Shown here piece after piece: positions 3,723 to 54,383 of a stretch of DNA of 64,000 bases; positions within the stretch are counted from its first letter, which is position 1, and each line of letters opens with the position of its first letter. Below the pieces are notes generated by a model. That model made no database searches. It was given only the letters and a program-made list of their open reading frames with translations, and was not told where the DNA came from. This DNA comes from Perognathus longimembris pacificus (taxonomy: Eukaryota; Chordata; Mammalia; Rodentia; Heteromyidae): positions 87,201,438 through 87,265,437 of the forward strand of contig NC_063162.1 of assembly GCF_023159225.1 (NCBI RefSeq), given 5' to 3'. The position numbers and the translations under genes are program-made.

Positions 3723-3959
3723 GGGGCTGGGAATTTAGCTCAGTGGTAGAGTGCTTGCCTAGCATGCATGAAGTCCTGGGTTCAATTCCTCAGTACCACA
3801 TAAACAGAAAAGGCTGGAACTAGCACTGTGGCTCAAGTGGTAGAGTGCTAGCCTTGAGCAAAAGAAGCTCCAGAACCATTCCCAGGCCCTGAGTTCAAGC
3901 CCCAGGACTGGCAGGCAGATAGAGAGATAGATAGATGACAGACAGACAGACAGACAGAC

Positions 3960-9147: not shown

Positions 9148-9349
9148 GGAGAGGAAGGAGGGGAGCCTTGGTATTTCTGCTAAATCTTCTGATTTGACTG
9201 GTTGGCCCATGACAGTGGCTGAATCAGTATCAGTCTTGGCAGCTCAGTCGTGGCCCAGAAATGTTTACTACTTGTGAGCTATTATTACACTTTGTATTTA
9301 CAGCAGATAATTGTACAGGACATGCATGTGCTATAGAGTTAGTACTTAG

Positions 9350-9385
9350 GGGCTGGGAATATGGCCTAGTGGTAAAGTGCTTGCT
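9350..9385 (+). mobile_element. Tailless head-only IDL insertion (tRNA-half-sized)
   Basis: 36 bp identical in type to the first part of the IDL head (GGGCTGGGAATATGGCCTAG onward). It stops after GTGCTTGCT, the anticodon-loop position of the tRNA-like fold. There is no rest of the head, no Geo half and no A-tail. Perfect 16-bp TSD tagagttagtacttag at 9334-9349 and 9386-9401. It fits the class of tailless retropseudogenes derived from 3'-truncated tRNA or tRNA-SINE RNA. Confidence 0.85.
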
Positions 9386-9401
9386 TAGAGTTAGTACTTA
9401 G

Positions 9402-19640: not shown

Positions 19641-20100
19641 TGGTAGTGGGTCTTGAACACAGGGCTTAGGTCTTACTTAGTTTTTTTCATTCAAGGCTTG
19701 TGCTAAACCACTTGAGCCATACCTCCACTTTGATTTTGCTGGCTAAATGGAGATAAGAGTCTTATGGAGGGCTGGGAATATGGCCTAGTGGTAAAGTGCT
19801 TGCCTCATATACATGAAGTCCTGGGTTCGATTCTTCAGCACCACATACACAGAAATAACCAGAAGTGGTTCTGTGGCTCAAGTGGTAGAGTGTTAGCCTT
19901 GAGCAAAAAGAAGCCAGTGACAGTGCTCAGGCCCTGAGTTCAAGCCTCAAGACTGGCAAAATAAAGAAATAAATAAAATAAAAATATTTTTAAAAAAGAG
20001 TCTTATGGAATTGTATGCCTAGTCTGGCTTTGAACCATAATCCTCAGATCTCAGTTCCCTGAGTAGCTAGGATTACAGGTGTGAGCCACCAGAACCCAGC
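19637..20100 (-). mobile_element. B1-Geo SINE, antisense, split by IDL-Geo
   Basis: Pieces 19637-19768 and 20010-20100 form one antisense element (GTGGGTCTTGAACACAGGGC; then GTGAGCCACCAGAACCCAGC). The insertion between them duplicated 14 bp of the host. Confidence 0.85.
19769..19995 (+). mobile_element. IDL-Geo SINE nested in B1-Geo
   Basis: Complete head (GGGTTCGATTCTTC), complete Geo and an A-rich AAATAAATAAAAT tail. Perfect 14-bp TSD aagagtcttatgga at 19755-19768 and 19996-20009, both within the host SINE. Confidence 0.95.
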
Positions 20101-22361: not shown

Positions 22362-22446
22362 CCCCCCACCCCGTAGTGTTGTAGTTCAAACCCAGGGCCT
22401 TGGGTAGTCTAAGCAAGTGCTCTACCACTGAGCTATATCCTTGTTC
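22362..22446 (-). mobile_element. ID-like monomer, antisense
   Basis: GTTCAAACCCAGGGCCTTGG, then AGCAAGTGCTCTACCACTGA and GCTATATCC is the reversed tRNA-Ala-type unit without Geo. Confidence 0.65.
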
Positions 22447-34212: not shown

Positions 34213-34413
34213 TTTTTTTTTTTTGGCCAGTCCTGGGCCTTGGACTCAGGGCCTGAGCACCATCCCTGGCTTCTTCCCGCTCAAGGCTAGCACTCTGCCA
34301 CCTGAGCCACAGCGCCCCTTCTGGCCGTTTTCCATATATGTGGTGCTGGGGAATCGAACCAAGAGCTTCATGTGTAAGGCAAGCACTCTTGCCACTAGGC
34401 CATATTCCCAGCC
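34213..34413 (-). mobile_element. IDL-Geo SINE, antisense, young subfamily
   Basis: T12 tail at 34213-34224, full Geo, and a head with an intact B box on the minus strand. Perfect 13-bp TSD ctattttagtccc at 34191-34203 and 34414-34426. A run of 12 C lies between the left TSD and the T tail. Confidence 0.95.
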
Positions 34414-34759
34414 CTATTTTAGTCCCATTTTTAAGGATATTCTTTTTATCTTCTCCTGCTGTCTCTGCTTATTCTCTATAGTTCAACCACTTTGGTCACA
34501 TCATTTTTTTTTTTTTCTTAGCAAGAAATATTTGAATACTATTTGTGGCTCCTACTTTGTTTTAGAAGTAGAAAAATGCCTTGTTTGATATTTCTTTTCA
34601 GTAATAGGCACTTGGGTCAAACCAGTGCAAATCAATTTGCAAGTGGTTGGTAATCACACAGCATTAAAATAACAAAACAAGCATTTATTTATGAAAGACA
34701 TTTTAAAGGGAATATATACTCTATTTGGAGGTTCCACTTGCTGCTTTTATTTTAGGTAA

Positions 34760-36496: not shown

Positions 36497-36700
36497 GGGG
36501 TGGGAATGTGGCTTAGTGGTAGAGTGTTTGCCTAGCATGCACGAAGCCCTGGGTTGATTCCTCAGTACCACATAAACAGAAAAAAGGTGGAAGTAGCCCT
36601 GTGGCTCAAGTTGTAGAGCAGTAGCCTTGAGCAAAAAGAAGCTCAGAGACAGCATCTAGTTCCTGAGTTCAAGCCCCAACAGGACCAGTAAAAAAAAAAA
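36497..36700 (+). mobile_element. IDL-Geo SINE
   Basis: GGGGTGGGAATGTGGCTTAG head; the B box has lost its C (GGGTTGATTCC). Geo ends AGGACCAGT, then A11. Perfect 10-bp TSD agcaaattaa at 36487-36496 and 36701-36710. Confidence 0.9.
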
Positions 36701-41336: not shown

Positions 41337-41540
41337 GGGCTAGGAATATGGCCTAGTGGCAAGAGTGCTTGCCTCCTATACATGAAGCCCTAGGTTTGAT
41401 TCCTCAGCACCACATATATTGAAAACGGCCAGAAGTGACACTGTGGCTCAAGTGGCAAAGTGCTAGCCTTGAGCAAAAAGAAGCCAGGGACAGTGCTCAG
41501 GCAAAAAATAAAAATAAATAAACTAACAACAACAACAAAA
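41337..41540 (+). mobile_element. IDL-Geo SINE lacking the last part of Geo
   Basis: Head and most of Geo; after GACAGTGCTCAGGC it passes directly into an A-rich tail, so the final 30 bp or so of the family consensus (CCTGAGTTCAAGCC region) are absent. Perfect 16-bp TSD aagagtgattaagcag at 41321-41336 and 41541-41556. Confidence 0.95.
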
Positions 41541-42096
41541 AAGAGTGATTAAGCAGAATGACTTGAGAGAAGGTTTTCAGGTGTGATGATGTCTGAAAAA
41601 GCTGTTACTTTAGGTGAGGTGGAGGAAGGCAAGAAATGAGAAGGGATAGGCAAAAAATGTTGTTAACCTAAGAACCTCAATGGTGCTTTTACTTATGGAT
41701 TCACCTAATGGTTTGCATGTTGTCAGGGCCAGGGAACCTTAAAATGACCTAACCTTGGTCTTTATAGTGTTGATGTCAAGCACACAGTTATGAATGTGTT
41801 AGGACTTTGCCTGTGAATTTACAGAGGCCTGGCATGAATTGCTTTGAACTGGAGGAACAATTTGAGTATGTGGTTCATAGGAGGGACTTCCCAAATCAAT
41901 AGAGCAACATTTCAATTCATCCAGTTTCCTGTCATTCTTTGAAGGTAGTAAAATAATTTTCCAGACATGGTTTCTGATGTTTCAGTCTTCTGCAGTGCAC
42001 TGCATTGTGGATCACAAGACCTAGATGATTCCATAGCATTAGGTAAATCTTAAACCTAGGGCCTCAGTTTCCACATTCTTAAAATCAAGGGTTGAG

Positions 42097-45354: not shown

Positions 45355-45370
45355 TAATTTATGTACCATT

Positions 45371-45410
45371 GGGCTGGGAATATGGCCTAGTGGCAAGAGA
45401 GCTTGCCTCG
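45371..45410 (+). mobile_element. Tailless head-only IDL insertion (tRNA-half-sized)
   Basis: 40 bp: GGGCTGGGAATATGGCCTAG plus the next 20 bases, ending GCTTGCCTCG, the anticodon-loop position. No A-tail and no Geo. Perfect 16-bp TSD taatttatgtaccatt at 45355-45370 and 45411-45426. An independent second case of the class at 9350. Confidence 0.9.
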
Positions 45411-45542
45411 TAATTTATGTACCATTAATAGAAAATGTATCACTAAGTAATTAAAATAGGCTGCCAAGTAAACCATGATGCGCATTAACTGTGAGTCATG
45501 CCCAGTACTGGAGATGGAAAGTGTGAGAAAAAGCATGTTCCA

Positions 45543-46321: not shown

Positions 46322-47088
46322 ATTGATTAATTGATTGTCAAAGTAATGTACAGAAGAGGTTACAGTTTCGTATCATTTTTAAAATAATAATTACTTATTG
46401 TCAAAGTGATGTACAGAGGGGTTACAGTTTCATATGTAGGGCCATGGGTACATTTCTTGTACTATTTGTTAGTACACCTCCCTCTCCCTTTCCATCTCCC
46501 CCCCAGGAGTTGTTTAGTTGGTTTACACCAAATGGTTTTGCAAGTATTGCTTTTGGAGTCGTTTGTCTTTTTATCCTTTGTCTCTCGATTTTGATAATCC
46601 CTTTCACTTCCCTAGTTCTAATACCAGTATGTACAGTATCCAGGGTACTCAGATGAAATACAGTGATGGCACAGGGACAACCACAGGAAGGGGATACAAG
46701 AGGATCATCAACAAAAGAAGCTACGGTTTCAGATGGCATGTTGAAAGTAATTACGACACAGTGATTTAACTCATTTCCATAAAATGGAGTTCATTTCACT
46801 TAGCATCATGTGTGTTTATAAGGTTATAGCTATTGGGCTCTTGTGATCCTCTGCTGTAGCCTAACCTGTGCTTGTTATTCCCTATGAGGGAAACCATAGA
46901 GTCCATGTTTCTTTAGGTCTGGCTCACTTCACTTAGTATAATTTTTTCCAAGGTTCTTCCATTTCCTTATGAATGGGGCAATATTATTCTTTCTGATAGA
47001 GGCATAAAATTCCATTGTGTATATGTACCACATTTTCCTGATCCATTCATCTACTGAGGGGCATCTGGGTTGGTTCCATATTTTAGCT
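46322..47088 (-). mobile_element. L1 3' end, antisense (young-looking)
   Basis: Reversed 3' terminus GTCAAAGTGATGTACAGAGG, TTACAGTTTCATATG; C-rich UTR block; then GGTTATAGCTATTGGGCTCT, CCATTGTGTATATGTACCAC and GGGCATCTGGGTTGGTTCC from the reversed ORF2 end. The same family as 56571-57063 but on the other strand. TSD-like taccatatatttt / tatcatatatttt. A second short copy of the terminus precedes it. Confidence 0.8.
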
Positions 47089-54177: not shown

Positions 54178-54383
54178 TTTTTTTTTTTTTGGCCAGTCCT
54201 GGGGCTTGGACTCAGGGCCTGAGCACTGTCCCTGGCTTCTTTTTGCTCAAGGCTAGCACTCTGCCACTTGAGCCACAGTGCCACTTCTGGCCGTTTTCTG
54301 TATATGTGGTGCTGGGGAATTGAACCCAGGGCCTCATGTATACGAGGCAAGCACTCTTGCCACTAGGCCATATCCCCAGCCCC
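54178..54383 (-). mobile_element. IDL-Geo SINE, antisense
   Basis: T13, complete Geo, complete head. TSD gaaatattta before the tail (54165-54174) and at 54384-54393. Confidence 0.95.

Follow-up and report, generated by a model that had tools for sequence, protein, structure and literature searches.

A tailless 40-nt copy of an ID-like SINE head between perfect 16-bp target-site duplications: a probable case of internal priming

Positions 45371–45410 (forward strand) of the window, the 64-kb stretch of DNA that was analysed here, hold the initial 40 nt of a tRNA-derived, ID-like SINE, a piece that stands without an A-tail inside perfect 16-bp target-site duplications. The sequence and a direct-repeat scan place the 5′ duplication, TAATTTATGTACCATT, at 45355–45370 and its perfect copy at 45411–45426 of the same strand, with the initial TA of the latter also matching the element. 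The insert itself, GGGCTGGGAATATGGCCTAGTGGCAAGAGAGCTTGCCTCG, was recovered by pattern search and by BLAST; its terminal bases are GCTTGCCTCG, no oligo(A) tail follows, and internal runs of A do not exceed two. Comparison with the longer copies in the window shows that it begins exactly at element position 1, and with 40 nt out of an element of ~191 nt plus tail it is 3′-truncated. BLAST aligns it with a long copy at 95% identity along 42 nt, the final two of which are common to the duplication. The end at 45410 is accordingly a minimum: the TA that follows it fits the duplication as well as 10 of the 19 longer copies. In these respects, a tailless 40-bp SINE-head insertion and its perfect 16-bp duplication, the preliminary description was confirmed from the sequence. 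The family name (ID-like, or IDL) and the rodent group (kangaroo-rat kin) are ones that we assume, and a literature search for IDL-Geo returned no papers; the insert presumably lacks box B. We consider it probable that the insertion is a tailless retropseudogene of the SINE RNA that was primed internally.

A companion insertion lies at 9350–9385 (forward strand), between the duplication TAGAGTTAGTACTTAG at 9334–9349 (found in the sequence and by the direct-repeat scan) and a perfect copy of it at 9386–9401 (direct-repeat scan), both on the forward strand. Sequence comparison identified the copy at 19769–19965 (forward strand; delimited by BLAST and Rfam alignment) as the nearest long relative of this head, from which it differs only at its own last base. 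The preliminary description had given this insertion the same 40-bp design and the same end as the one at 45371. It measures 36 nt and its final bases are GCTTGCT, not GCTTGCCTCG; "nearly the same cut-off" is a fair description of the pair, with the reservation that the 9350 insert ends ~3 tRNA positions earlier. The duplications do differ, as had been claimed, and the two cases bear out the proposal of independent, retroposition-like insertions of a SINE 5′ half, tailless and with perfect duplications. An intact 5′ start, 3′ truncation, a missing tail and perfect duplications are thus observed at two unrelated sites.

The source SINE is abundant in the window. BLAST with one long window copy as the query, in which matches starting at query position 1 or 2 were counted as heads, detected 21 SINE heads, of which 19 extend into the second unit and two stop short, after 36 and 40 nt. 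A pattern search tolerating as many as three mismatches yielded 17 heads. The reference for the searches was the full-length, A-tailed copy at 54183–54382 (reverse strand; BLAST and alignment). A weak match at 22440–22389 (query positions 8–60, 73.6%), by eye an old ID-like copy, was left out of the heads. Matches to the 191-nt body reach at least position 189 in 17 of the 19 longer copies, and positions 183 and 166 in those at 36497 and 41337, respectively. The 40 nt at 45371 correspond to the head of these ordinary ID-like SINEs, whereas the second unit and the A-tail are missing. An A-rich end is present in 18 of the 19 longer copies (the exception is the copy at 3724) and in neither of the two inserts, which argues for the tailless reading. 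We accepted a duplication for 13 of the longer copies: nine are perfect and at least 11 bp long, two are longer with one or two mismatches, and two are short (8 and 9 bp). Among the other six, four have no duplication and two are doubtful. Exact-pattern scans of viral, bacterial and archaeal contigs gave no matches, a result that is uninformative for rodents.

A stray SINE fragment lying by chance between unrelated repeats would be a trivial explanation, and related sequence pieces are indeed common in the window. We scanned the window for perfect direct repeats of at least 12 bp flanking 20–150 bp, with low-complexity repeats filtered out, and obtained six pairs. Only two of these reach 15 bp, namely the pairs that flank the insertions at 45371 and 9350; both of the window's strongest short-range repeat pairs enclose SINE heads. 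In 20 first-order Markov simulations the mean number of pairs of at least 15 bp was 0.05, and the probability of a perfect 16-bp flank arising at any of the 21 heads over 220 offsets is ~2e-6. On the strength of the latter value we rejected a chance repeat, which we regard as practically negligible. With up to two mismatches allowed, the scan returned 16 clusters, which include both insertions; several of the others fall, by eye, within SINE copies or local repeats. At 46332–46440, imperfect direct repeats at distances of 62–63 resemble a local tandem duplication.

Deletions are common in general, and a full-length A-tailed copy might have been inserted at each site and have lost its body and tail later, at 45371 perhaps guided by the 2-nt TA repeat. 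Such a history requires two independent events, each ending exactly at an intact 16-bp duplication with no tail base left behind. In addition, of the 13 duplications accepted for the longer copies, 10 begin with A (where A's meet a tail, their assignment is uncertain), whereas the bases directly after the tailless inserts are TAATTT (45371) and TAGAGT (9350). For both reasons we rejected secondary deletion as very improbable. Perfect 16-bp duplications that directly adjoin an insert whose first base is element position 1 instead favour direct insertion of a tailless retropseudogene.

The SINE head is tRNA-like. The copy at 3724 scores above the Rfam tRNA cut-off (32.6 bits versus 29); those at 19769 and 54382 can be aligned but stay under that threshold (20.2 and 20.8). 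No tRNA gene was predicted by ARAGORN. When the 54382 copy is aligned to Rfam tRNA, its anticodon loop reads CUCGUAU, which we take to be positions 32–38 in standard tRNA numbering, and in the 19769 copy the loop reads CUCAUAU; in both alignments two of the five pairs of the anticodon stem are non-standard. The 45371 insert ends after G35, or after A37 if the shared TA is counted, and the 9350 insert at position 32 (T replacing C), or 33 with the shared T. The suggestion that the inserts end in the anticodon loop thus holds for both in the Rfam tRNA alignment, with reference copies that score below the cut-off, and this position is a further argument for the preferred reading. Energy folding of the SINE copies yielded no cloverleaf. 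The fold of the 54382 copy puts position 40 into an apical stem and position 42 into the loop of that stem, and single-sequence folds disagree among copies: by eye, an unpaired base was counted at position 40 in 3 of 18 and at position 42 in 11 of 19. The loop claim therefore rests on the tRNA alignment and not on folding. Under uniform truncation, two ends within one 7-nt loop have P ~0.002, to which we attach little weight because the loop was chosen after looking and because known tailless copies prefer loops.

Tailless retropseudogenes are reportedly a class founded by the paper of Schmitz et al. (2004). According to the sections available of a later study by Noll et al. (2015), they are copies of tRNAs and SINEs that are truncated at the 3′ end and flanked by target-site duplications (PMC5322556). 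As given there, the screen accepted a nearly complete 5′ end (with a tolerance of 5 nt of mismatch), a 3′ loss of at least 10 nt, a length of at least 30 nt, and duplications of 8–35 nt that are at least 70% identical (PMC5322556). The 45371 insert agrees with this definition in its 5′ end, 3′ truncation, length, duplications and lack of oligo(A), and on these grounds we assign it to the tailless retropseudogenes; it belongs to a published class and is not new. Two further features reported in those sections are complementarity of the target to the terminal 2–18 nt of the RNA, and truncation within loops or single-stranded parts of the RNA (PMC5322556). The published cases that we could compare are likewise 5′-complete, tailless and flanked by duplications, and they end within a tRNA-like RNA's loop, as the tRNA alignment suggests for the present insert; the present case differs in that an ID-like SINE of a species other than that of the detailed human set is involved and in that the target sites match the published consensus only partly (PMC5322556). 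SINE transcripts, with ID among the examples, are called significant sources of tailless copies there, the data not being shown (PMC5322556). Similarly, as far as the text of another report extends, 22 of 25 recent ncRNA retrocopies lack poly(A) and are usually 3′-truncated (PMC2912911).

For the 45371 insertion, the preferred reading implies that the target DNA would have been nicked by an L1-type enzyme and that the freed DNA 3′ end would have primed inside the anticodon-loop region of the RNA, not on an A-tail. Reverse transcription would then have proceeded to the RNA 5′ end, and joining would have left the 16-bp duplication. That the enzyme was L1, and that priming was internal and did not start from a pre-cut RNA, is what we infer. 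If priming was internal, the RNA bases that follow the break should stand at the start of the duplication. An overlap of 2 nt (TA) exists at 45371 with 10 of the 19 possible sources, three of the four best-scoring ones among them, and none with the other nine; at 9350 the best source and 12 others share 1 nt, three CTAG-type copies share 3 nt and three copies share none. The TA overlap, together with the features shared with the published class, speaks for the preferred reading, but as ~7% of random window sites show a 2-nt overlap it is weak evidence, and these overlaps (2 nt; 1 to 3 nt) do not discriminate between internal priming and a pre-cut RNA. The target sites, AT/TAATTTA at 45371 and TA/TAGAGTT at 9350, are a partial fit to the published TT/WAAAAWW. 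Internal priming is thus weakened by the shortness of the overlap, the disagreement of the folds about the loop and the partial fit of the target sites.

Alternatively, as the preliminary description proposed, an RNase that halves tRNAs may have cut the SINE RNA in the anticodon loop, after which the L1 machinery would have captured the 5′ half and copied it from its 3′ end; we think this unlikely. It is consistent with the position of both ends, which the Rfam alignment places in the anticodon loop, and with the range of possible ends at 45371, which takes in a U-A step. In addition, the part of a 2026 Cell Genom. report that was available suggests tRNA halves as the origin of half-length tRNAs (1–37) found in chimeras with LINE-1 (PMC13174262). 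Those chimeras likewise have duplications and a tRNA part that ends in the anticodon loop, but there the half is fused to a 3′ piece of LINE-1, for the most part in antisense orientation to it, while here the half stands alone (PMC13174262). Against cleavage, the ends of our two inserts differ (C32/U33 versus G35 to A37). Noll et al. also looked in human small-RNA libraries for 5S and U2 transcripts that end at the breakpoints, and in the genome for truncated copies carrying an A-tail; in the sections available, neither search gave a convincing case and internal priming was concluded (PMC5322556). The published data and the 2-nt overlap lean towards internal priming over a pre-cut RNA, and the published work is the stronger support of the two.

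Rather doubtful, in our estimate, is an extension by which ID-like SINE RNA would regularly be cut into 5′ halves at the anticodon-loop region in this lineage and L1 would insert the halves as recurrent mini-elements, perhaps one for every ten full-length copies (2 versus 19 in the window). By itself the 45371 insertion is ordinary, and its possible use lies in the frequency of the source SINE. Two of 21 heads are tailless in one 64-kb window; two cases give no rate, and if 2/21 held genome-wide there would be many junctions per genome at which internal priming could be weighed against pre-cut halves. On this question the 2015 (PMC5322556) and 2026 (PMC13174262) papers, in the parts available, lean opposite ways.

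Observations were also made on three long copies. The one at 34217–34414 (reverse strand) has a G run between its A-tail and the duplication. That at 3724–3930 (forward strand) has the most tRNA-like head, GATA-like repeats replace its A-rich tail, and no duplication was found at its flanks. The copy at 41337–41550 (forward strand), in which the match to the body reaches only position 166, continues into an A-rich tail and is flanked by a perfect 16-bp duplication; this is the form that would be expected of a truncated and then adenylated RNA, or of an internal deletion or a variant source.
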